A stretch of DNA of 36,592 nt. Source: a virus. Of the stretch, positions 6,098 to 36,592 are shown one piece after another. The notes beneath the pieces are model-generated. The model was not told the origin of the DNA. It searched no databases and saw only the letters and a program-made list of their open reading frames with translations. The first letter of the stretch is position 1; every line of letters begins with the position of its first letter. The translations under genes and the position numbers were made by a program. The stretch is taken from positions 1 to 36,592 of the IMG/VR virus record IMGVR_UViG_3300025887_000066. One strand, written 5' to 3'.

Positions 6098-6126
6098 ATT
6101 ATACCACACTTTTATGCATTTGTCAA
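6098..6126 (-). promoter_or_regulatory. Consensus sigma-70 late promoter
   Basis: The minus strand reads TTGACA, a 17-base spacer, TATAAT: a perfect match at both hexamers with optimal spacing. The spacer shares AATG..TAAAAGT.TG with the promoter at 10787-10815, and its last part with the one at 19065-19093. It would drive the zinc-ribbon, scaffold and capsid genes. The -35 box lies inside the coding sequence of the 22-residue peptide at 6112-6180. Confidence 0.9.
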
Positions 6127-11117: not shown

Positions 11118-11133
11118 ATTAACTGGAGTTAAT
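11118..11133. promoter_or_regulatory. 16-bp palindrome ATTAACTGGAGTTAAT, copy 1 (operator-like)
   Basis: Seven-base arms surround GG. The site abuts the TTGACA -35 box (11134-11139) of the early promoter. Unlike the other three copies it is not followed by a start codon, so here it must act at the DNA level if it acts at all. This is the best argument that the repeated element is a protein-binding site and not only a ribosome site. Confidence 0.75.
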
Positions 11134-11162
11134 TTGACATTCTCCACAGGATTTGAGATACT
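11134..11162 (+). promoter_or_regulatory. Early promoter PR1
   Basis: TTGACA, 17 bases, GATACT, with TGA just before the -10 (extended -10 type). The second rightward promoter at 11851-11879 has the same design (TGA then GACAAT). It drives the monocistronic 179-residue gene; transcription should start near 11169. Confidence 0.75.
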
Positions 11163-11193: not shown

Positions 11194-11208
11194 TGAGAAT
11201 GATTCTCA
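11194..11208. promoter_or_regulatory. Fur-box-like inverted repeat
   Basis: TGAGAATGATTCTCA is a perfect 7-1-7 inverted repeat. It differs from the bacterial Fur core TGATAATNATTATCA by one symmetric base pair per arm. The flank on the left (AA) also fits the published gammaproteobacterial Fur pattern. It lies about 25-40 bases after the predicted start of PR1. A host ferric-uptake regulator or a phage protein with similar specificity could bind here; which one is unknown. Confidence 0.55.
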
Positions 11209-11215
11209 ATTAAGA

Positions 11216-11231
11216 ATTAACTGGAGTTAAT
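11216..11231. promoter_or_regulatory. 16-bp palindrome, copy 2, over the ribosome site of the 179-aa gene
   Basis: An exact copy of ATTAACTGGAGTTAAT whose internal GGAG is the Shine-Dalgarno of the gene at 11235, eight bases from the ATG. In RNA it can form a six-base-pair stem with the loop TGGA, partly hiding the Shine-Dalgarno. Shares 24 consecutive bases (through the ATG) with copy 3. Confidence 0.75.
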
Positions 11232-11234
11232 ATC

Positions 11235-11774
11235 ATGACTAACATAGATATCAAAGGCGCTGGCGCTATTGTTGCAAAAGCACAACTAGACGCAGAGAAG
11301 AAACCAGTCGCGGCAATGATCAAGGGACTAGCTGACGTTAAAACGAAAGAGGATACCGCGGAGTTCATCGGCGGTTATGAGGGCGGGTTAATCGCTGGCG
11401 GTAAATCAGAGGCATCTGTCAAGGTAATGATCAGCCGCGCACGTCGCATCGCTAAGATCTGGACAGCGACCGATAAAAAGCTAAACGATTTTCACGGCAT
11501 CAATTCACCGGCAGACGGCCAAGCATTGATCAAGGATACCGCGAAGGATTCGGGCGGACTCACTGAGCTATACGAGAAGCTAGCACCGAAAGAGCAAGAG
11601 ATCGCGCCGGACACTGACCAAGGCGAGCCAGACGCAGAGATGGAATCATCATCGGAGCCACTGGCCAGCGAAGCGCCGAAACTCTCGCACTTGCTTTCGG
11701 AGTTCGTCCAAAAAGCCCACGAGAACGGCTACACAAACGACGAAATAAAAGCCATCGTAGCAGAGGCGCTGTAA
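11235..11774 (+). CDS. Standalone early protein of unknown function (179 aa)
   Basis: A 179-residue protein with no family that I recognise. Residues 45-75 (GGLIAGGKSEASVKVMISRARRIAKIW) look like helix-turn-helix or another DNA-binding helix pair. Residues 120-150 are acidic and Ser/Pro-rich, probably a flexible linker, and the last 30 residues form a compact helical end (LLSEFVQKAHENGYTNDEIK). The gene has its own promoter, palindromic ribosome site and terminator, so it is a separate transcription unit and probably the first expressed. Its GC content and codon use are visibly higher than those of neighbours. A regulator or host-takeover factor is the leading guess, unproven. Confidence 0.85.
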   Translation: MTNIDIKGAGAIVAKAQLDAEKKPVAAMIKGLADVKTKEDTAEFIGGYEGGLIAGGKSEASVKVMISRARRIAKIWTATDKKLNDFHGINSPADGQALIKDTAKDSGGLTELYEKLAPKEQEIAPDTDQGEPDAEMESSSEPLASEAPKLSHLLSEFVQKAHENGYTNDEIKAIVAEAL

Positions 11775-11797
11775 GACCCGCACCATGTCCACACTCG

Positions 11798-11818
11798 CCG
11801 CCTTCGGGCGGTTTTTTT
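11798..11818 (+). terminator. Intrinsic terminator after the 179-aa gene
   Basis: CCGCC-TTCG-GGCGG, a five-base-pair GC stem with a stable UUCG loop, is followed by seven T residues. It ends the monocistronic early transcript 24 bases after the stop codon and isolates it from the operon that follows. Confidence 0.93.
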
Positions 11819-11850: not shown

Positions 11851-11879
11851 TTGACAATCATTCTTATTTGTGAGACAAT
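11851..11879 (+). promoter_or_regulatory. Promoter PR2 of the small-gene operon, with overlapping Fur-like site
   Basis: TTGACA, 17 bases, GACAAT, again with TGA before the -10. The -35 and spacer overlap TGACAATCATTCTTA (11852-11866). On the reverse strand this aligns with the Fur-like site near PR1: 16 of 18 bases agree over AAAT.AGAATGATT.TCA. Binding here would block polymerase directly. It drives the genes from 11939 onward. Confidence 0.75.
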
Positions 11880-11919: not shown

Positions 11920-11935
11920 ATTAACTGGAGTTAAT
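11920..11935. promoter_or_regulatory. 16-bp palindrome, copy 3, over the ribosome site of the first small gene
   Basis: An exact copy of ATTAACTGGAGTTAAT, with the GGAG eight bases before the ATG at 11939. This copy fixes the start of the downstream gene, because an in-frame ATG at 11897 lacks a ribosome site. Confidence 0.75.
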
Positions 11936-11938
11936 ATC

Positions 11939-12271
11939 ATGATGATTCAATACTTTGATAAGCAAGCAGATCGTGAGTGGCTTGGGATTGTCCCTGAGTT
12001 CTTCGGTCGTGGCGTTGTAGCGGCAAGGTTTCAGGGCGGTGGCATCGCTACCGTTGCTGATGAGATGAACGAGACGTATGGTGGAGGTGGTTTCGCTGAC
12101 CACTGGCAAGGTGACATCGATGATGATGGTGTGTATCACGCGCCGGAAGATGAGCCGCTTGAGCCGTATGCCCGTGTTGACTTCAACGGGTGGACGATGT
12201 GGGCGTATCCTTATTCTATATTCGGCATCAAGGACAGCGTAGGCAATCAACGTGTAGGGAGGTTTGACTGA
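11939..12271 (+). CDS. Hypothetical early protein (110 aa)
   Basis: A 110-residue acidic protein starting MMIQYFDKQADREWLGIVPE. The second half is rich in Asp and aromatic residues (DDDGVYHAPEDEPLEPYARV, then WTMWAYPYSIFGIKDS). No Cys pairs, signal or membrane segment. It is the first gene of the operon behind PR2 and carries the same palindromic ribosome site as the 179-aa gene and the ssDNA-binding protein. Surface-acidic small early proteins often act against host enzymes, but nothing here proves that. Confidence 0.75.
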   Translation: MMIQYFDKQADREWLGIVPEFFGRGVVAARFQGGGIATVADEMNETYGGGGFADHWQGDIDDDGVYHAPEDEPLEPYARVDFNGWTMWAYPYSIFGIKDSVGNQRVGRFD

Positions 12272-12495
12272 TGGAAAATGCACAGAAAAAGCTGGATGCT
12301 GTTCGTGTTGCTGTTGATGCAATGTCGTCAGTGTTGACTGTAAATCCGCGAGCATTCGATGGATACCCTGATATATTCGGTACGCTTGCTGATCTGCGTA
12401 TGGATCTTCTGGATATTATTGATGCGGAGAATGGGTGGAGTGAGCGCTACTCCGATGGTCCTGAAGATAACCTTCATTACATAAACGAGAGGTGA
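12271..12495 (+). CDS. Hypothetical early protein (74 aa)
   Basis: A 74-residue, predicted all-helical protein starting MENAQKKLDAVRVAVDAMSS and ending in an acidic stretch. The ATG overlaps the preceding stop by one base (TGATG) and a GGGAGG Shine-Dalgarno lies just upstream, so the two genes are translationally coupled. No recognisable family. Confidence 0.75.
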   Translation: MENAQKKLDAVRVAVDAMSSVLTVNPRAFDGYPDIFGTLADLRMDLLDIIDAENGWSERYSDGPEDNLHYINER

Positions 12496-12498
12496 TGC

Positions 12499-12681
12499 AT
12501 GATCGCATTAACTAAGAATCAGCAACAGGCTTTGTTGCGTAAGTGGAGTCTGAACAATCAAGGTATGTCGTACCGTTCGTTCAGGCGTAGTGTTGAACCG
12601 ATGGTGTGTGACCCTGCCGTTGTGGTTAAGTGGTGTGGTATGTGGTTATGCATCGAACCTGATGGTCGTGTTAATACATAG
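12499..12681 (+). CDS. Small conserved phage protein (60 aa)
   Basis: A 60-residue protein with LTKNQQQALLRKW at its start and CGMWLCIEPDGRVNT at its end. I recall this pattern, an LT..Q...L.R..  start and a WCGMWLCIE..G end, from many marine phages of several morphologies, where it remains uncharacterised. A GAGAGG Shine-Dalgarno supports the start. It may be a compact fold with a Trp/Cys core. Function unknown. Confidence 0.8.
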   Translation: MIALTKNQQQALLRKWSLNNQGMSYRSFRRSVEPMVCDPAVVVKWCGMWLCIEPDGRVNT

Positions 12682-12692
12682 GAGGAGTGACA

Positions 12693-13022
12693 ATGGACAT
12701 TCATTGTAGGTATTGTGGTGAACCGTGGGATCATGACGAGTTGCATGACATGGAAAGTTGGACAGGTCACGACATGTCTTATAGACAAGCTGCAAAACGC
12801 TTTAAAGAGTTAGGTTGTAACGCATTCAAGCCAGACACCGGACGTTTACGCGAACGAGCTGGATTGCCCGCGAAGCCTAAGCACTGTACGCTTGCGCCGA
12901 TATACGACCGTGACATGATGTTTAATATCGCGATGGTTCAAGATATGTCAGATTACCCCGAAGAATGGAACAGTCCCGACGAGATTGAGATGATGCTAGA
13001 GATGGCGGAGGAGATGTTCTGA
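12693..13022 (+). CDS. Small CxxC protein (109 aa)
   Basis: A 109-residue protein starting MDIHCRYCGEPWDHDELHDM. Cys5 and Cys8 with nearby His residues could bind zinc. The middle is basic (LRERAGLPAKPKHC) and the C-terminus strongly acidic and helical. The ATG at 12693 is chosen over the in-frame GTG at 12687 because AGGAGG (12680-12685) is then seven bases away. Such CRYCGEPWD proteins recur in marine phage early regions; the function is not known to me. Confidence 0.75.
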   Translation: MDIHCRYCGEPWDHDELHDMESWTGHDMSYRQAAKRFKELGCNAFKPDTGRLRERAGLPAKPKHCTLAPIYDRDMMFNIAMVQDMSDYPEEWNSPDEIEMMLEMAEEMF

Positions 13023-13141
13023 TGTCTATGGTCTTTGAGTGTGGTGAATGTGGTGAGTGGTTCCACAGTGAGAAAGAGGTGTACCAAGAGGACGACGGCG
13101 AGTGTATCTGTGTGTGTTGTTGGGAGGATAATCATGAGTGA
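13022..13141 (+). CDS. 39-residue cysteine-rich microprotein
   Basis: The frame encodes MSMVFECGECGEWFHSEKEV and ends with CICVCCWEDNHE. Six Cys (7, 10, 28, 30, 32, 33) and His15 make a plausible zinc knuckle or ribbon in only 39 residues. The ATG overlaps the preceding stop (TGATG) and the end overlaps the next gene by eight bases, the tight packing expected of a real gene. Function unknown. Confidence 0.65.
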   Translation: MSMVFECGECGEWFHSEKEVYQEDDGECICVCCWEDNHE

Positions 13142-13367
13142 AGTAATTCAGTTGTTTGCCAAGACAAGGGTGACGGCTAAGTGTCTGCTGTGTGGTGATA
13201 CGGACACTTGCCTTGTTGACACGCATTCGTGGAGTGAATATACTGGTAACAGATCAAAGCTTGTGCAGGATGTATTTCCTAATGAGGATACGTGGACGAG
13301 AGAGGTACTTATAGGTAATCGTACTGGTGCCTATATGTGTGTTGAATGTTGCATAGAGGAGGAATGA
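13134..13367 (+). CDS. Small zinc-ribbon-like protein (77 aa)
   Basis: A 77-residue protein starting MSEVIQLFAKTRVTAKCLLC. Cys17-Cys20, Cys26 and the C-terminal Cys69, Cys72 and Cys73 could form a zinc ribbon that brings the two ends together. The start at 13134 follows a GGAGG Shine-Dalgarno, while an upstream in-frame ATG at 13035 would overlap the previous gene extensively. A nucleic-acid or protein adaptor role is possible but only inferred. Confidence 0.75.
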   Translation: MSEVIQLFAKTRVTAKCLLCGDTDTCLVDTHSWSEYTGNRSKLVQDVFPNEDTWTREVLIGNRTGAYMCVECCIEEE

Positions 13368-13368
13368 T

Positions 13369-13695
13369 ATGCATTTTACAGAGGTGAGAGTAGCGAGTTA
13401 CTTTATTGACGCGGTGTTGCGTGACCCAGACAAGAGCATCAGTGTGCACGGTGGCGGTGAGTATGCTGACGTTGAGAAGTCTCGTGAGTACTTTACGATT
13501 CGCGACCACATGGGTGAGTGTGACTTCGATGACGTGGGTGTGTGGAGCGATCAACGTGAGTCATACATTGCGTGGTTCCAGTTTGTGTATGGTAACGTCA
13601 GCAGTACCAGTGAACCGATGGAAGTAATCAGTGACTATACTGCAAATGAGTATGGTGATAATATTATTAAACGAGTGGAGTGGTGTACAGAATGA
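13369..13695 (+). CDS. Hypothetical early protein (108 aa)
   Basis: A 108-residue acidic protein starting MHFTEVRVASYFIDAVLRDP. It is rich in Tyr, Asp and Val, which suggests a mixed alpha/beta fold, with a WFQFVYGNV strand near residue 70. GAGGAGGA precedes the ATG. The end overlaps the next gene by four bases. No motif is recognised. Confidence 0.7.
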   Translation: MHFTEVRVASYFIDAVLRDPDKSISVHGGGEYADVEKSREYFTIRDHMGECDFDDVGVWSDQRESYIAWFQFVYGNVSSTSEPMEVISDYTANEYGDNIIKRVEWCTE

Positions 13696-14072
13696 GTGAT
13701 TTATTTACAAGTAGGGAAGATCTCGAAGAGTTGCGCGATCAGATAAGTAAGATGCGTAGCTTTATCGAGTACGACATTTACAATCATCCAAAGGGTGAGT
13801 TGTTTGAGGAGCTAGACATACTGCTTAAGGACGCAGTGCTACATCTTGACAAGATGGACAAGGAGTTAGTGCAAGTCTACGCATTCGATGTGACTGTTAC
13901 TGTTACAAGACGTGTGTATGCGAAGGGATCAGATGAGCATGAGGCAGAGCAAGCGGCGATAGACTACGCTGTGAGTGAGCTAGACTGTCCTATTGATTGG
14001 AATGAGGATGGCGCAGAAGCAATGCGTCGTGAAGATGAAGAGACCACTAGGGTCTACGATGTGGAGGTGTAA
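13692..14072 (+). CDS. Hypothetical coiled-coil early protein (126 aa)
   Basis: A 126-residue, very acidic protein. Residues 5-60 are amphipathic helices (SREDLEELRDQISKMRSFIE), and residues 63-75 form a beta strand (YAFDVTVTVTRRVYAKG) followed by another helix with DEHEAEQAAIDYAVSELDC. The strand-helix pattern resembles the small domain found in several phage proteins with a valine-rich strand. The start at 13692 (ATGAGTG) overlaps the previous stop. Function unknown. Confidence 0.7.
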   Translation: MSDLFTSREDLEELRDQISKMRSFIEYDIYNHPKGELFEELDILLKDAVLHLDKMDKELVQVYAFDVTVTVTRRVYAKGSDEHEAEQAAIDYAVSELDCPIDWNEDGAEAMRREDEETTRVYDVEV

Positions 14073-14075
14073 TGT

Positions 14076-14267
14076 ATGGCTATGGATACTTGGTTTATTG
14101 TGCAGAAGTTTAACCGCAAGACGTGGGAGTGGGAGGAGAGAGACGATGATGGGTCGTCTTGGAATTCTACTCTTAGTAATGCAAAGTACTTCTGTGATCG
14201 GCATATAGCAGACGGCGAAGAATGCCGTGTAGTCAAAGAGGAGGTGGTCTATGCACCCGATGCCTAG
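14076..14267 (+). CDS. Hypothetical early protein (63 aa)
   Basis: A 63-residue protein starting MAMDTWFIVQKFNRKTWEWE. The WFIVQKFN strand, the SSWNSTLSNAKYFCDR helix and CRVVKEEVVY strand suggest a small beta-alpha-beta domain. A GGAGG lies just upstream of the ATG at 14076. The end overlaps the next gene by 17 bases. No family recognised. Confidence 0.7.
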   Translation: MAMDTWFIVQKFNRKTWEWEERDDDGSSWNSTLSNAKYFCDRHIADGEECRVVKEEVVYAPDA

Positions 14268-14847
14268 TATTAGTAAGATGACGGGTAAGCTGGACGGTAT
14301 ACAAGCAATCAACACCAACACAGTTACGAATCCATTCTGTGTGCAGGAGTCTAACAAGACTGATGCAAGCAAGATTTGTACCAAGTGTTACAGTGTTAGT
14401 ATGCTTTCTAGTTATAGGAAGAACTGCCAACCATCCTTCCAGAGGAATAGTGACATCCTTGCGAGTGATGCTGAGTTCGTGTTGCCGCGTACCTCCGGTG
14501 CATTTGTGCGGTTTCATGGGCACGGTGAGCTTATAAATGAGCAACACTTCCGTAACTTATGTGCGATAGCGGAGGACAACAAGCACTCTACCTTTGCGTT
14601 GTGGACTAAGCGTGTGAATCTAGTACGTCCGAATCTGCATCTAGTACCTAGTAATATGCTTCTGGTTTATAGTAATCCGAAGATAGATAACGTGATGGAA
14701 TCTCCACCGCGTGGGTTCGACCGTGTATTCAACAACGTGTCGGAGTCGTATGACGGTGAGGCTAACTGTACTGGACAGAAGTGTATGGATTGTTTATTAT
14801 GTTATAAGCGTGAGACGACAGACGTTATTGTCGAGCATGTAAAGTGA
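14251..14847 (+). CDS. Cysteine-rich Gp88-like protein, possible Fe-S enzyme
   Basis: A 198-residue protein. The pattern resembles the phage Gp88/DUF7227 family as I recall it: an N-terminal Cys30 and Cys43-x2-Cys46-Tyr, a RFHGHGELIN core strand (87-96), a FALWTKR strand (115-121), and a C-terminal cluster Cys173-x4-Cys178-x2-Cys181-x2-Cys184. The seven Cys in two groups could hold an iron-sulphur centre or zinc, and the strand layout recalls a partial radical-SAM barrel. It has a GAGGAGG ribosome site and lies in the small-gene operon. Enzymatic activity is not established for this family to my knowledge. Confidence 0.7.
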   Translation: MHPMPSISKMTGKLDGIQAINTNTVTNPFCVQESNKTDASKICTKCYSVSMLSSYRKNCQPSFQRNSDILASDAEFVLPRTSGAFVRFHGHGELINEQHFRNLCAIAEDNKHSTFALWTKRVNLVRPNLHLVPSNMLLVYSNPKIDNVMESPPRGFDRVFNNVSESYDGEANCTGQKCMDCLLCYKRETTDVIVEHVK

Positions 14848-14874
14848 TGTGTCTGGGTATTGGGGGAGGTTTCT

Positions 14875-15027
14875 ATGGGACGTGAGACTTGGGAAGTGTG
14901 GCACGATGAGTACCAAGAGTACTGGGATCAAGACAGTGACCGATGTAAGTGGGACTATGCAGATGAGTACTACGAGGACGACATCGGTAAGTACAAGGAG
15001 GAGAGGGATATTGAAGAAGCGAGGTAA
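14875..15027 (+). CDS. 50-residue acidic, aromatic small protein
   Basis: The frame starts MGRETWEVWHDEYQEYWDQD and ends DIEEARstop. It has a GGGGGAGG ribosome site and lies in line with its neighbours, overlapping the next gene by 17 bases. Trp, Tyr, Asp and Glu make up more than half of it, as in DNA-mimic or anti-defence peptides, but resemblance in composition alone does not show such a role. Confidence 0.6.
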   Translation: MGRETWEVWHDEYQEYWDQDSDRCKWDYADEYYEDDIGKYKEERDIEEAR

Positions 15028-15226
15028 CTACCTTGACTATCACATGACACATCAGGAAATCGCTGATGAGCTAGGTGTTAGTAGGACAACGGTACGTGCA
15101 ATAGAGTACAGTGCGTTGCAGAAACTCAAGCGTTCTGGTAAATTGCGTACTTTCTTGGAACATATCAACGACGATAGAGAGGATTATTATGGGGAGAAAT
15201 ACACGCCGGTACGTCAGAAATCATAA
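15011..15226 (+). CDS. Miniature sigma-70 region-4-like HTH protein
   Basis: A 71-residue protein that begins at a TTG codon eight bases after AGGAGG; no ATG fits as well. Residues 12-41 (MTHQEIADELGVSRTTVRAI, then EYSALQKLKRS) match the region-4 helix-turn-helix of sigma-70 factors, which recognises the -35 box. There is no region 2 or 3. The C-terminus is acidic then basic. It precedes the promoter at 15268-15297 and the replication genes, so it may redirect or modulate host polymerase at phage promoters; a plain transcriptional regulator is the alternative. Confidence 0.75.
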   Translation: MKKRGNYLDYHMTHQEIADELGVSRTTVRAIEYSALQKLKRSGKLRTFLEHINDDREDYYGEKYTPVRQKS

Positions 15227-15308
15227 GACGCGCTGTAAATCAAGTGTCAAAAGTCACAAGAAGAGTGGTGCCAAAAAGAATCGTGGTGTGGTACAATCTT
15301 CTATATAG
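15189..15308 (+). CDS. 39-residue basic small ORF
   Basis: The frame starts MGRNTRRYVRNHKTRCKSSV and ends QSSI. It is strongly basic with many Lys, Arg and Ser and overlaps the end of the region-4-like gene by 38 bases. A GAGAGGA sequence lies upstream. The -10 box of the next promoter lies in its last codons, so the sequence is under other constraints. It may be a real DNA-binding peptide or a chance frame. Confidence 0.35.
   Translation: MGRNTRRYVRNHKTRCKSSVKSHKKSGAKKNRGVVQSSI
15268..15297 (+). promoter_or_regulatory. Putative middle promoter ahead of replication genes
   Basis: GTGCCA, 18 bases, TACAAT. The -35 is weak (four of six) but the -10 region reads GTGTGGTACAAT, nearly the GTGTGGTATAAT seen at 6098-6126 and 19065-19093. 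That shared extended -10 suggests a common class of phage promoter. It would drive the 61-residue gene, primase-helicase and polymerase. Confidence 0.6.
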
Positions 15309-15319
15309 TCTATACAGTA

Positions 15320-15338
15320 AGTACTATGCATTAGTACT
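15320..15338. promoter_or_regulatory. Inverted repeat AGTACTA-TGCAT-TAGTACT
   Basis: Seven-base arms around TGCAT in the short AT-rich leader between the promoter at 15268 and the gene at 15375. Related AGTACT/ATGCA clusters occur near 10730-10752 and 10922 in the divergent control region, so it may be a shared operator. It could equally form an RNA hairpin in the leader. Confidence 0.45.
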
Positions 15339-15374
15339 AAGTATTAATAATACATATTACTTATGGGAGGTGAT

Positions 15375-19067: not shown

Positions 19068-19093
19068 CACAATCTGCAAAAGTGTGGTATAAT
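19065..19093 (+). promoter_or_regulatory. Promoter of the ssDNA-binding protein gene
   Basis: A perfect TATAAT at 19088-19093 is preceded by AAAAGTGTGG, identical to the same part of the late promoter at 6098-6126. The -35 region (TAGCAC) is poor, as expected of an extended -10 or activator-dependent promoter. It overlaps the polymerase stop and gives the binding protein its own, probably stronger, transcript. Confidence 0.75.
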
Positions 19094-19105: not shown

Positions 19106-19121
19106 ATTAACTGGAGTTAAT
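19106..19121. promoter_or_regulatory. 16-bp palindrome, copy 4, over the ribosome site of the SSB gene
   Basis: An exact copy of ATTAACTGGAGTTAAT directly before the ATG at 19122. The GGAG is five bases from the start codon. The element lies about +6 to +21 of the transcript from the promoter at 19065-19093, a position where either a bound protein or an RNA hairpin could regulate expression. Confidence 0.75.
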
Positions 19122-32190: not shown

Positions 32191-32838
32191 TTAGATAGTC
32201 CTAAATACCATCTCTTCAGGATGCTTTGCCGCGTCAATAGCAATAGCGTCTGACAAGTACTGGTTAGCAATAGTAAAGTACTCAGCAGTAGAAGTACCAC
32301 CTGTTTCACCACGTTCACGAGCTAACAAAGCAACAGCTAAATGTATTACTGGCTGTGAAGGTATTAACAATGTATCAGCATCAGCAGACAAATCTACCTG
32401 TCGTTTAACAGTATCAACACGTATGGTATACACACCGTCTGGTGTTGGTCCTACAAGAATCTGCGTATCACCGTTAGCATCTAAACCGTTATAAGTATAA
32501 TATTGCGGTGTTCCTTCTGAAGCGTTTCCAATGTACAGTGCTTCGTTAAACCAGTCTTTAGTTTGATACTCCATAAAACAGTTATGAGTATCGTTTAACA
32601 TTGACATTACTTTAATGTTATCACTACCGCCTGTTAATGAATAAGTATTGTCTGAAGCCGAAGTAGTTATAATTAATGTTTCACGTAACGCAGACCAATC
32701 AGCAGCTTGACCTACTAATGTTTTGGCATCGTTAATAAAATCACCTACCATCTTAACGTAGGTTGTACTAGTAACAGACGATGTTTCTTCTTCACGAAGT
32801 CTGCGTAGTACACTGTTCATAAGATTTAAATATGTCAT
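32191..32838 (-). CDS. Head-tail adaptor protein (SU10-adaptor-like)
   Basis: A 215-residue protein. NSVLRRLREEETSSV, then YVKMVGDFINDAKTLVGQAA and DWSALRETLIITTSASDNTY match the pattern of SU10-type or tail-tubular-A adaptors (VLRRLRE…V…FIN.AK…W..L). It would bind the portal ring and carry the nozzle. ATGA overlap with the upstream 904-residue gene and direct succession by the nozzle gene agree with this role. Confidence 0.88.
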   Translation of the reverse strand: MTYLNLMNSVLRRLREEETSSVTSTTYVKMVGDFINDAKTLVGQAADWSALRETLIITTSASDNTYSLTGGSDNIKVMSMLNDTHNCFMEYQTKDWFNEALYIGNASEGTPQYYTYNGLDANGDTQILVGPTPDGVYTIRVDTVKRQVDLSADADTLLIPSQPVIHLAVALLARERGETGGTSTAEYFTIANQYLSDAIAIDAAKHPEEMVFRTI

Positions 32839-35549
32839 ACCAGCATTCCTTGTACCTTTAATGGCTTAGGCATTTTTCTAGGTGATAGTCCTTTTAAGAA
32901 TGGATCAAACTTTACAGGCTGTCGTGGCATAGCCGCTACTATTTGTTCCGGTAGTTGTTGTTGTTGTAATGCAAGACCCATTAAGCCAGCACCTAATCCT
33001 TGTCCTAGTCCTGCAATGCCTTCACCAAGCCCCGCAAGACCTGCTCCAACACCACCGATTTGTTGACCTAGCCCGGTAATATCTGACCTTACCTCTTCTT
33101 CTGATCGGCTAACTGTTTCCTCAATTAACTCCTGCATGGCTGATTCTTGACTCAACAAACCTTCTTGTAACGATTCAAAGTTAACATTCACTAACAAACC
33201 AAGCTGTTCTATATCTAAACCTAACTCGTTTAACCTATCTTGAGTGTTTTCATCTAATGCTTCTATGTTACCGTCTACTTTAATTAAATCAGAAGCAATA
33301 TCAGCAACTTCCTCGCTTAATGTCCCTAAACTTCCTCCAAGAACTGCTCGCTCTTCTTCCGCTTGTTCAAACTCTTCTGCTACACTAGACTCAAAAGCTT
33401 CTTGTATTTCAGCTTGACTAAGCTGTCCTGCTTGTAGTGCTTCAAGATCGATATTAACATTGCCAAACAATTCATCAATAGTTTCACCGAATGTTTCAAA
33501 ACGCTCTTGATTTGCTTCATCAAGTTTTGTAATGTCTCCATTAACAGCAACAATAGCTTCTTGTAGTTCTTGCCTTTCATCTGAAGCAAGTGTTTGACCT
33601 TCTTCAAGAGCTTCTAAGCTTGTTAAAAAACCAGAAGTAGAAGATTCTATAACGGCTTCAAGTTGTTCAGAAGTTAAAGTTTCTGCTTCAGGTATGTTAG
33701 CTATTGTTTGATTTACAATTTCAGTAACTTCTTCAGAAGTCATGTTTTTAACATTAGGTTGATTAGCAAGAACGGTACTAATCATTTCAGCTACTTGCTC
33801 TGCTGTAGTGTAGTCAACTACTGCTGCGTCGCTTTCCCCTGCTTCTATAACATCTCCAAAAATTTCATTTGTTATAGATGTGGTATCTTGTAATTCTGAA
33901 TCATCAGCTTCTATAGAATCGTCTGAAGTAATATCAACTATTTCTTCTTCAGGTACTACTTCAGGTACTACTTCGGGGACTACTTCAGGCACTACTTCGG
34001 GGACTACTTCAGGTATTACTTCAGGTACTACTTCAGGTATTACTTCAGGTACTACTTCAGGTACTACTTCAGGGACTACTTCAGGTATTACTTCAGGTAC
34101 TACTTCAGGTATTACTTCAGGTACTACTTCAGGTACTACTTCAGGTACTACTTCAGGTACTACTTCTGCATCATTTATTAGGTCTTCTGTTTTTACTTCC
34201 TCTCCTTTTATTTCTTCTTCTACTTCTTCTTGTTCTTGTTCAACAGTATCTGTAAAAATATCGGTTTCTGTTGTTTCTTGTTCAGACTCTCCTGTTTGTT
34301 CGTATTCCGGGAGATTGAAAACAGTTTGACCTTCCCCTGCTGTTGGATAAGGAGAAACATCGGTTGTCATTTGGTCAAGAACATTAACAACACCTTGAGC
34401 GGCTCCTGAAGTTTCAAAAGCATCAGCAACAGTGTTTACAAAATCAGAAGTACTTCTTGTTATTTCTGCGACTACAGCATTCCCAGCTTCTGCTGTTTGA
34501 GTAATAAAATCACTGTAAAGAACTTCTGTTCCGTCACTAAGCGTAACAAAAGTATTTTTACCAAAAGTATTCATTGGTAATTCTGTACCGTCTGCTAACT
34601 GTACTGTATCTTGAGTAAGATTATTTAAAGACTCTGTAAGAGAATCTAAAACACCAGAGTTTTGTAAGTAGTTAATAGCAGTAGTAGTCAAACCCGCACT
34701 AATAGCAGACTCAAGTGCTTGACTTAAATCTACCTCACCAGTAGCGACAAGCTGTGCTGCTGCATTTGTGATTCCAGAAGAAGCTCCCGCAGCAAGAGCA
34801 GCATTGCCCTTAAAAACAGGACCCAATGCTTCAGCTAAAGGACCACCAGCATAAAAACTCATTGCCGCTATAATGCCAGCTTTGGCAAACTGTGTAGGTC
34901 CGGGACTGCTTACCTCTTCAGTTTTAACGTAAGCAGAACCATTCCATCGAAATTTATCACCTGACTCGCTATAAGTAATAGGACTAACACCGTACTTCTC
35001 TAACAGTGCTTGGTTAGCGTCAGAGTTAATCCAGTTATTATAAGCGCCTTGTTGAGTGCTTGTTTGCTGTCTACGAAGATTTTCTATGTTTTGTCCGGGA
35101 TCGCTAGCGTCTATAGTAAGATCAGCGTCCCCCTCAAGAATCATTTGTTGGTCTTCTGTAAAGCCAGTATCAGCCTCTGCCCAGTTTCCTGTGTCGTAAT
35201 CACCAGACTGAATTAACTGTTCACGCTCAGTCATGTAAGCAAGGTAGTTATCAAAAGAACCAAACATTTCTTGTAGTCTGTTTACGTCACCACCTTCAAA
35301 GTAATTACGCAACTCATCTACAGTTAAGTTTTGTACTTCACCGGTTTGACCATATAAATAGTCAAGATGTGCGTCTCCTTTTTCACGTCCTTCAACAAAC
35401 GTAAACGTCATTTCAGAAGGAGTGCTATCGCCTTTAACATCTCGCATAGGCTTAATACCGCCAGTCTCAGGAGGTGTTGTATCTTTTGTAGGCATAGCAG
35501 GTTTATCTGTTTTACCTGTTAGCATTCCTGTTTTAGCTTTTCTAGCCAT
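32835..35549 (-). CDS. Large virion protein with (V/I)PEV repeat and coiled-coil C-terminus (904 aa)
   Basis: A 904-residue, very acidic protein. Residues 1-220 are polar. An Ala/Gly-rich hydrophobic stretch follows (AGIIAAMSFYAGGPLAEALG, near 230). Residues 462-534 are the 18-unit (V/I)PEV array described separately, flanked by Glu-rich spacers. The C-terminal third is a helical coiled-coil region with two copies of a LDE..Q.R..E.G..I..L...VN…LE..Q…LSQ module, ending in Gly-rich repeats and a basic PRKMPKPLKVQGMLV. A stiff rod flanked by helical domains fits a fibre, spacer or ejected protein; I do not recognise a family. Confidence 0.75.
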   Translation of the reverse strand: MARKAKTGMLTGKTDKPAMPTKDTTPPETGGIKPMRDVKGDSTPSEMTFTFVEGREKGDAHLDYLYGQTGEVQNLTVDELRNYFEGGDVNRLQEMFGSFDNYLAYMTEREQLIQSGDYDTGNWAEADTGFTEDQQMILEGDADLTIDASDPGQNIENLRRQQTSTQQGAYNNWINSDANQALLEKYGVSPITYSESGDKFRWNGSAYVKTEEVSSPGPTQFAKAGIIAAMSFYAGGPLAEALGPVFKGNAALAAGASSGITNAAAQLVATGEVDLSQALESAISAGLTTTAINYLQNSGVLDSLTESLNNLTQDTVQLADGTELPMNTFGKNTFVTLSDGTEVLYSDFITQTAEAGNAVVAEITRSTSDFVNTVADAFETSGAAQGVVNVLDQMTTDVSPYPTAGEGQTVFNLPEYEQTGESEQETTETDIFTDTVEQEQEEVEEEIKGEEVKTEDLINDAEVVPEVVPEVVPEVVPEVIPEVVPEVIPEVVPEVVPEVVPEVIPEVVPEVIPEVVPEVVPEVVPEVVPEVVPEEEIVDITSDDSIEADDSELQDTTSITNEIFGDVIEAGESDAAVVDYTTAEQVAEMISTVLANQPNVKNMTSEEVTEIVNQTIANIPEAETLTSEQLEAVIESSTSGFLTSLEALEEGQTLASDERQELQEAIVAVNGDITKLDEANQERFETFGETIDELFGNVNIDLEALQAGQLSQAEIQEAFESSVAEEFEQAEEERAVLGGSLGTLSEEVADIASDLIKVDGNIEALDENTQDRLNELGLDIEQLGLLVNVNFESLQEGLLSQESAMQELIEETVSRSEEEVRSDITGLGQQIGGVGAGLAGLGEGIAGLGQGLGAGLMGLALQQQQLPEQIVAAMPRQPVKFDPFLKGLSPRKMPKPLKVQGMLV
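33949..34164 (-). repeat. 12-bp minisatellite, 18 units, coding for (V/I)PEV
   Basis: Eighteen consecutive 12-base units, 216 bp, read in frame on the minus strand as VPEV or IPEV, the last as VPEE. Unit variants include GTACCTGAAGTA, ATACCTGAAGTA, GTCCCTGAAGTA, GTCCCCGAAGTA and GTGCCTGAAGTA, showing a history of slippage and mutation. Such arrays change length by whole units and keep the frame. Confidence 0.97.
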
Positions 35550-36130: not shown

Positions 36131-36592
36131 TACTTACCACCTGTTATAATAAACATTAATAACCCAGCTAAAAGCCCTGTCATCGTCACTATAGCAAAAG
36201 AACTAACAAGTGCTTCCTTTAGTTCTTGTTGTCTATAAACCGTTTCTTCTCTTTCTCTTGCTATGTTCTTCTTTAGTTCACGAAACTCTAAAAGTCCTTG
36301 ACTACCATATGCGTAGTTCAACATGGTTATCAAGTCTCTTTGTTGTGCTTCTATCTTCTTCTTTGCAGCAAAAGCTTGTATAGCCTCTGCTTCTACACTT
36401 TTCCTAAATACAACCTTCTTAAAAGGTGATGCTCTTTTTGCCTTGTTGTCTGCGTAGATGACATCAGATGCGTGTCCGTACCAAGTACTTATCTGCATCA
36501 TAGTGTCTTCAGCAGCCCTTCCTGCTTCTACCATTGCCTTTGCCATAGCAAATGCTTTAGAGGCTCCAGCAATAGCAGTAACAGGATCAATC
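36130..36592 (-). CDS. Junction-spanning membrane-associated protein (154 aa when the circle is closed)
   Basis: This is the body of a gene that starts at 161-163 in the left terminal copy and runs through the circle junction. The product has an N-terminal Ala-rich helix, a helical middle (VEAEAIQAFAAKKKIEAQQR), a charged helix NIAREREETVYRQQELKEAL, and a C-terminal membrane segment (SSFAIVTMTGLLAGLLMFII). The stop overlaps the next ATG (TAATG). It is the first of three consecutive small membrane proteins that end with the holin. A lysis or virion-membrane role is inferred; no family is recognised with confidence. Without closing the circle the frame would be misread as starting at 36546. Confidence 0.85.
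   Translation of the reverse strand, partial: IDPVTAIAGASKAFAMAKAMVEAGRAAEDTMMQISTWYGHASDVIYADNKAKRASPFKKVVFRKSVEAEAIQAFAAKKKIEAQQRDLITMLNYAYGSQGLLEFRELKKNIAREREETVYRQQELKEALVSSFAIVTMTGLLAGLLMFIITGGK
36432..36592. repeat. Terminal overlap, right copy
   Basis: Second copy of bases 1-161, with A at 36466 where the left copy has T at 35. See the left copy for the interpretation. Confidence 0.95.

Follow-up and report, generated by a model that had tools for sequence, protein, structure and literature searches.

A predicted repressor with switching palindromic operators at an early gene cluster of an uncultured podovirus

The viral DNA analysed here, IMG/VR record IMGVR_UViG_3300025887_000066 (36,592 nucleotides (nt); 'the window' in what follows), carries on its plus strand a cluster of thirteen small genes, g2 to g14, preceded by a separate gene, g1 (11235-11774, 179 amino acids (aa)). 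Our overall reading, to which we give a probability of roughly 65% from sequence comparisons, is that the cluster is an early operon under the control of g1, and that this first early gene encodes a repressor that binds DNA sequence-specifically, belongs to an undescribed family and has palindromic operators that switch in type. In our view g1 and its operators matter most at this locus; they were absent from the preliminary description of this DNA.

The palindrome ATTAACTGGAGTTAAT is present in the window in four exact, operator-like copies, starting at 11118, 11216, 11920 and 19106. The first (11118-11133, +) abuts the -35 element of the g1 promoter, a sigma-70-type TTGACA-17-GATACT at 11134-11162 (+) that was found by consensus scan and in the upstream regions of relatives; the second (11216-11231, +) lies in the g1 leader and contains the GGAG Shine-Dalgarno sequence. 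An intrinsic terminator (11797-11818, +) follows g1, and a promoter of its own, TTGACA-17-GACAAT, precedes the cluster at 11851-11879 (+), with the third copy (11920-11935, +) in the g2 leader, again containing the Shine-Dalgarno sequence. The fourth copy (19106-19121, +) is in the leader of open reading frame (ORF) 19122, which has no PHROG match; it starts 12 nt after the -10 element of an extended -10 promoter-like site, GTGTGGTATAAT, at 19082-19093 (+). With up to three mismatches allowed, ATTAACTGGAGTTAAT had 11 matches in the window against 0.5 in shuffled sequences, palindromes counting on both strands.

Relatives of the window were taken from IMG/VR as helicase-anchored contigs; 180 stretches were confirmed and the best 80 were kept. 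Loci L130-L244, which came from a scan of viral contigs with a bare 14-mer whose listed matches were mostly single, were excluded from every count. At matching places in the relatives we found palindromes of five types: A, TTAACTGGAGTTAA, which is the type of the window; B, TTAATCTGGATTAA; D, TTAAATGCATTTAA; E, TAACCCTAGGGTTA; and F, TAAACTCGAGTTTA. There were at most seven matches per locus, a word in the helicase gene included. Exactly one of the five types occurred near the g1 and g2 promoters for 60 of 62 distinct g1 proteins (165-215 aa), with one type per g1 clade: A in c1 (17 proteins), B in c2 (13), D in c3 (13), A in c4 (9), F in c5 (7) and E in c6 (1). The remaining two proteins, those of L265 and L284, are accompanied by palindromes of their own at both promoters. 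The 51 unique full-length loci formed six g1 clades at 55% identity, and no clade had a near-promoter site of a foreign type.

We compared 19 genes between types A and B, with up to 22 A and 14 B loci per gene, and g1 alone separated the types. Its identity was 0.82 within a type and 0.36 between types, the best cross-type pair reaching 0.43; every one of the other 18 genes, adjacent g2 included, had pairs across types at 0.99-1.00. Small shifts of the mean by type (permutation p <0.05) were seen for g2, g3, g4, g7 and g11.

Sites farther from g1, at a distance of ~8 kilobases (kb), were typed only at loci with both g1 (>60 bits) and ORF 19122. Near-identical loci were collapsed (L010/L115, L083/L123, L122/L256 and L066/L102), L284 was dropped and L265 was treated as a clade of its own. 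In the window's group (group 1) the type of the ORF 19122 leader site matched the g1 clade in 9 of 13 rows, and in 9 of 12 lineages after collapsing (label shuffles, p 0.03). In a sister group (group 2) the distal site is a palindrome inside the exonuclease gene, not present in the window; here 14 of 16 lineages agreed in site type with their g1 clade (p 2e-5 by label shuffling). This palindrome stands at one fixed codon position, after YDYTKK, and is kept while the encoded residues differ (NLNAFK, VLTAVK, KVNSSL). In the exonuclease gene of L287 yet another palindrome, TCTTATAATATTATAAGA, was observed at the operator position.

The distal sites could also be compared between nearest neighbours by helicase, counted by eye. 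If the neighbour had the same g1 clade, the distal type differed in 0 of 14 genomes; if the neighbour had another g1 clade, it differed in 10 of 18, with one further genome lacking a site. The window and L006 are such a pair: their helicase DNA is 98.1% identical and their g1 proteins 36%, and L006 has type B at all three of its sites, those of the g1 promoter, the g2 leader and the ORF 19122 leader.

These counts bear on the possibility that the association of g1 with palindrome type is one of linkage only, g1 and its flanking palindromes forming a single recombination block and the palindromes being read by a host factor or by another phage protein. The near-promoter association by itself leaves room for linkage, because the types were read from those very regions, within ~1 kb of g1; indeed g1, its leader and the g2 leader all fall within that distance. 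Linkage would also agree with the mismatching distal sites of 3 of 12 group-1 and 2 of 16 group-2 lineages, and with the eight of 18 different-clade neighbour pairs that kept their distal type. It is difficult to reconcile with the change of distal type along with g1 in the other ten pairs, against none of the same-clade pairs, or with g2, which lies beside the operator, and 17 other genes not being split by type (five with the small mean shifts given above). We consider linkage alone unlikely.

Several observations nevertheless weigh against a repressor whose operators switch with it. The near-promoter sites that defined the types lie close to g1, as just described, and the label shuffles for the distal sites ignore kinship. 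The eight pairs with unchanged distal type count here as well, as do the individual mismatches, which were in L010/L115, L104 and L038 at the ORF 19122 leader and in L268 and L265 at the exonuclease gene; L284 has no exonuclease site. Foreign-type sites were seen in the early region, type A in a D genome (L271, +1907) and type D in an F genome (L076, +2355). Of the five c4 contigs, four cluster on the helicase tree and so do not count as independent events. The helicase-gene word TTAACTGCAGTTAA is shared by genomes of several different types, among them L029, L127 and L038, and the E word is found in the helicase gene of the B genomes L025, L110 and L111; since the distribution of the helicase-gene palindromes does not follow type, they were set aside as operators. 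Finally, the g1 protein is acidic overall (net charge -9) with no recognised DNA-binding domain, and in clades c1, c2, c3, c5 and c6 the site at the g1 promoter is upstream of the -35 element, a position that suits an activator too.

The last point leads to an explanation that we regard as unlikely, in which g1 is an activator or a replication or partition protein and the palindromes are activator sites or iteron- or parS-like sites. Apart from the position upstream of -35, sites adjoining or sitting inside replication genes fit it. The sites in the g2 leader (in the contigs of c1, c2 and c6 that were examined) and in the ORF 19122 leader are, however, downstream of the promoter, and in L015, L017, L018 and L048 a type-B site comes immediately after the -10 element of ORF 19122; clade c4 has at g1 a leader site only, downstream of the promoter (-35 elements of relatives were read by eye). 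Repression is the better fit for all these positions, and a protein bound at them should repress.

Action of the palindromes in RNA, as Shine-Dalgarno hairpins that regulate translation, seems to us very unlikely. Three of the four window copies do have a central GGAG and stand 5-8 nt ahead of a gene start. Type-B sites, on the other hand, occur in both orientations, each followed by a separate Shine-Dalgarno sequence, which favours action in DNA, and other sites are upstream of -35 or within a coding gene.

The g1 protein of the window had no match in PHROGs, in Pfam, among cultured phages or, by sequence, in PDB; Pfam searches with 27 g1 members produced scattered weak hits. The predicted structure is all-helical, with a mean predicted local distance difference test (pLDDT) score of 82.3 and a confident part at residues 1-119, and the model had no significant fold match in PDB or BFVD. 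A second look with VIA-align returned as its best match a receptor chain (Z 3.7), besides a LacI-family chain (Z 3.4) and a TetR-family chain (Z 3.0), which we do not take as evidence. Positions 68-71, within a predicted helix at 59-77, vary with palindrome type: residues 68 and 70 are basic in both type-A clades, although residue 68 is basic in E and F also, as residue 70 is in D. For the g1 alignment the starts in L006, L034 and L046 were shifted 42 nt upstream by eye. No description of the g1 family or its operators was present among the literature matches listed, which cover few subscription journals.

A second kind of palindrome was observed at the same promoters. The g1 leader holds the Fur-box-like TGAGAATGATTCTCA at 11194-11208 (+), agreeing at 12 of 14 positions with what we take to be the Fur consensus, and the cluster promoter includes a weaker Fur-like sequence at 11852-11866 (11 of 14). 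Boxes scoring at least 12 of 14 on this assumed consensus were found in 20 of 60 g1/g2 promoter regions against a background of 0.0027 per kb, the carriers being 16 of 17 in clade c1, 3 of 14 in c2, and L265. This distribution suggests that phage early genes may be subject to iron regulation by the host through Fur boxes.

The cluster itself fills exactly the interval from the start of g2 at 11939 to the end of g14 at 15308, and comprises thirteen plus-strand genes of 39-198 aa, in agreement with the number, sizes and place given in the preliminary description. The latter had the genes overlapping by one to a few tens of bases; this holds for 7 of the 12 junctions (1, 1, 8, 4, 17, 17 and 38 nt) and slightly overstates the case, because the other five are gaps of 1-27 nt. 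Twelve of the genes start with ATG, while a TTG start was chosen for g13. In order they are g2 (11939-12271, 110 aa, acidic), g3 (12271-12495, 74 aa), g4 (12499-12681, 60 aa, basic), g5 (12693-13022, 109 aa, with a CxxC and two further cysteines), g6 (13022-13141, 39 aa, six cysteines), g7 (13134-13367, 77 aa, CxxC...CxxC), g8 (13369-13695, 108 aa, acidic), g9 (13692-14072, 126 aa, net charge -20), g10 (14076-14267, 63 aa), g11 (14251-14847, 198 aa, GP88 family), g12 (14875-15027, 50 aa), g13 (15011-15226, 71 aa, a stand-alone sigma-70 region 4.2) and g14 (15189-15308, 39 aa, very basic with an isoelectric point of 12). The 39-residue protein with six cysteines and the 50-residue acidic and aromatic protein that had been singled out earlier are thus g6 and g12, the latter with a net charge of -12 and 20% aromatic residues.

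Sequence extending >3.7 kb upstream of the helicase was available in 29 of the 80 contigs, 20 of the window's group and nine of a distant group. In the 20 contigs g7, g9, g10, g12, g13 and g14 were always present, g2 and g4 were found in 19, g5 in 18, g6 and g11 in 17, g8 in 16 and g3 in 10. Most cluster genes were missing from the distant group, where g13 was found in all nine contigs and g4, g7, g8 or g11 in some. Median pairwise ratios of non-synonymous to synonymous substitution rates (dN/dS) were 0.08-0.32 across g1-g15 and 0.10-0.32 for g2-g14 except g6 (e.g. g2, 0.14; g4, 0.24; g10, 0.30; g12, 0.10; g14, 0.32). The value of 0.08 for g6 comes from four sequences and six pairs only, because longer g6 orthologues were outside the length filter, which also took short artefact frames (down to 3 aa) out of the orthologue lists. 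Alternative frames of the orthologues had mostly 2-13 stops per 100 codons; near-open ones (<1 stop per 100) were the +1 frame of g12 and of g14 and single antisense frames of g2, g10 and g12. On conservation and dN/dS we judge the thirteen small genes to be genuine. The earlier view of them as real small genes of an early-type operon gains support from the conservation of their frames among relatives, 'early' being our reading of their position and promoters.

The cysteines that had been pointed out as CxxC pairs in several cluster genes proved to be conserved. Among distinct orthologues all four were kept in g5 (22 of 22), five of six in g6 (21 of 21) and four of six in g7 (29 of 29); in g11, which has conserved C-x2-C and C-x2-C-x2-C motifs, all 45 distinct orthologues have C178/C181/C184 and 43 of the 45 have C43/C46. 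Such cysteines look like predicted metal-binding sites.

Most cluster genes diverge faster than the helicase (dN/dS 0.08), and against contigs with near-identical helicases identity falls gene by gene through the cluster. Two genes come and go as clean cassettes: g3 is cleanly missing from L011, L034 and L046, and g5 from L004 and L008. Small, mostly acidic and fast-diverging proteins, gain and loss of single genes and the drop of identity against near-identical backbones are what one would look for in an island of host-takeover or anti-defence genes. We give such a function of the cluster, which the preliminary description had put forward, an even chance; it is compatible with a repressor g1, since the latter reading concerns regulation. 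The persistence of g8, g11 and g13 in distant relatives is, in contrast, what basic early functions would show, and no clear named anti-defence or takeover match was found in PHROGs (13 of 13 cluster proteins scanned), Pfam (10 of 13) or PADLOC (defence proteins; 9 of 13), apart from one weak PHROG match of g13. The PADLOC scan, which included g1, yielded just two weak helix-turn-helix-type matches, both to g13. The PHROG match in question, one of 37 weak ones of g13, is named host nuclease inhibitor (E 0.0097) and lies over the helix-turn-helix.

The cluster had been described as holding no gene of nameable function, which is not so for g13 and g11, the latter belonging to a family that itself has no assigned function. 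The g13 protein matched Sigma70_r4 (PF04545) with 38.2 bits (cut-off 24.1), and all 26 aligned g13 members, the window's included, matched it at E <= 0.001. In solved structures this profile falls on the C-terminal end of RpoD/SigA. The match covers only profile positions 19-49, the first part of region 4 missing, and g13 is not a complete sigma-70 factor: the profile match is restricted to region 4 and there is no region 2 for -10 recognition.

One may ask which promoters such a protein would serve. The extended -10 word GTGTGGTAYAAT is common to sites at 6098-6109 (-), 15286-15297 (+) and 19082-19093 (+); the second of these, GTGTGGTACAAT, is a promoter-like site before g15/helicase, and the third is that before ORF 19122. 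At the counterparts of the two plus-strand sites in relatives, a TTRGCA-like -35 sequence, read by eye, stands 18 nt upstream. The AT-rich leader before g15/helicase, 15298-15365, has an imperfect inverted repeat and is well conserved in the window's group; it is possibly a replication origin or a regulatory hairpin. Speculatively, g13, which lies near the end of the operon, would be the best candidate for directing host polymerase to two of these extended -10 sites, those at 15286 and 19082. In the available text on sigma appropriation by MotA and AsiA of phage T4 (PMC6755090, PMC2988021) there is a likeness, an early phage protein that would act at the position of sigma region 4 for later promoters, and a difference, in that g13 is itself the homologue of sigma-70 region 4.2.

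The g11 protein is, by profile comparison, a divergent GP88 protein. It matched PF17338 at just 36.0 bits (cut-off 24.4), as did, at E <= 0.01, all 32 aligned members, the window's included; the library gives no function for this family. Several contigs of the distant group have in their early region a 204-aa g11 homologue, 20-21% identical by BLAST, with a GP88 match. Relatives of g11 among cultured phages were limited to three records. At 308-916 of L084 and 6001-6606 of L085 there are g11 homologues, from Roseobacter phage CRP-5 (54%) and from Pelagibacter phage Greip (49%), and both carry the annotation hypothetical. The AlphaFold2 model of g11 (mean pLDDT 48.8) was too poor to be informative, and its PDB search, with no significant fold match, is meaningless; judging by its cysteines, g11 might have a radical S-adenosylmethionine-like TIM barrel.

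We place the window in an uncultured, mostly marine-looking group of podoviruses. A 161-nt direct repeat at 1-161 and 36432-36592 (99% identical) is consistent with a complete genome. Structural genes are on the minus strand, and genes for primase-helicase, DNA polymerase, exonuclease, endonuclease and ribonucleotide reductase on the plus strand. The top-ranked match of the helicase among cultured phages was 47.8% identical, and the best place of every record was below 60%. An Rfam scan of the window gave no match. A 904-aa gene on the minus strand (32835-35549), with no PHROG match, contains an array of 12-nt tandem repeats at 33884-34243. Searches of bacterial and archaeal contigs found no relatives of the helicase or of g1 (for g1, with a single protein query that reaches close relatives only), and because of this no prophage or host was identified. 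Integrase (PF00589) and resolvase (PF00239) were found in 0 of 11 records, which may be fragments, against 14 of 14 and 10 of 14 controls.

On our reading, host RNA polymerase would transcribe 11939-15308 as the main early operon from the promoter at 11851-11879, and g1, with its own promoter and terminator, would supply the protein that, as the covariation implies, binds the type-A palindrome. Its binding sites would be those at the g1 promoter and leader, in the cluster leader and in the ORF 19122 leader. From the position of these sites, g1 once bound would prevent promoter escape or elongation, and thus shut down early and replication transcription together with its own synthesis. Recombination would switch its operator specificity, alleles and operators moving together; because they do so, a co-infecting phage of the same type would have its early genes silenced and a phage of another type would not.

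Repressor and operator immunity groups are known from temperate phages. In lambdoid phages CI and Cro provide early shut-off and autoregulation, and operator specificity defines compatibility groups; g1 differs in having no recognisable helix-turn-helix family match, and no lysogeny module was found here. Cluster A mycobacteriophages (L5, Bxb1), which are temperate, have 20-30 repressor sites per genome, oriented with transcription, according to the available text of PMC6550527. As far as that text goes, the likeness is in dispersed sites, some at promoters and some not, and in a site sequence that tracks the repressor between groups, a covariation that we found here too, with exceptions at the distal sites. 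Heteroimmunity between groups, a feature of the Cluster A phages (PMC6550527), is for the present phages a proposal only. Two defining features of the Cluster A system as it is presented there (PMC6550527) are not shared: the sites are fewer, with four exact palindromic ones in the window, and no temperate module was detected, integrase or resolvase being found in none of the 11 records.

Tentatively, and with distinctly less confidence than in the repressor itself, we suggest that these podoviruses with no detected integrase may possess an incompatibility system. It would consist of a new repressor family with at least six operator types, recombining together with its operators onto near-identical genomes and in one group having an operator inside a coding gene, and it would decide which co-infecting relatives express their early genes, host Fur boxes at these promoters, in many members, adding an iron signal. 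If this is true, exclusion between co-infecting phages, and not lysogeny, can drive the evolution of immunity types, and palindrome type would be a simple sequence code predicting compatibility in metagenomes. With g1 the cluster would gain a regulator, so that its small genes become testable as one regulon.

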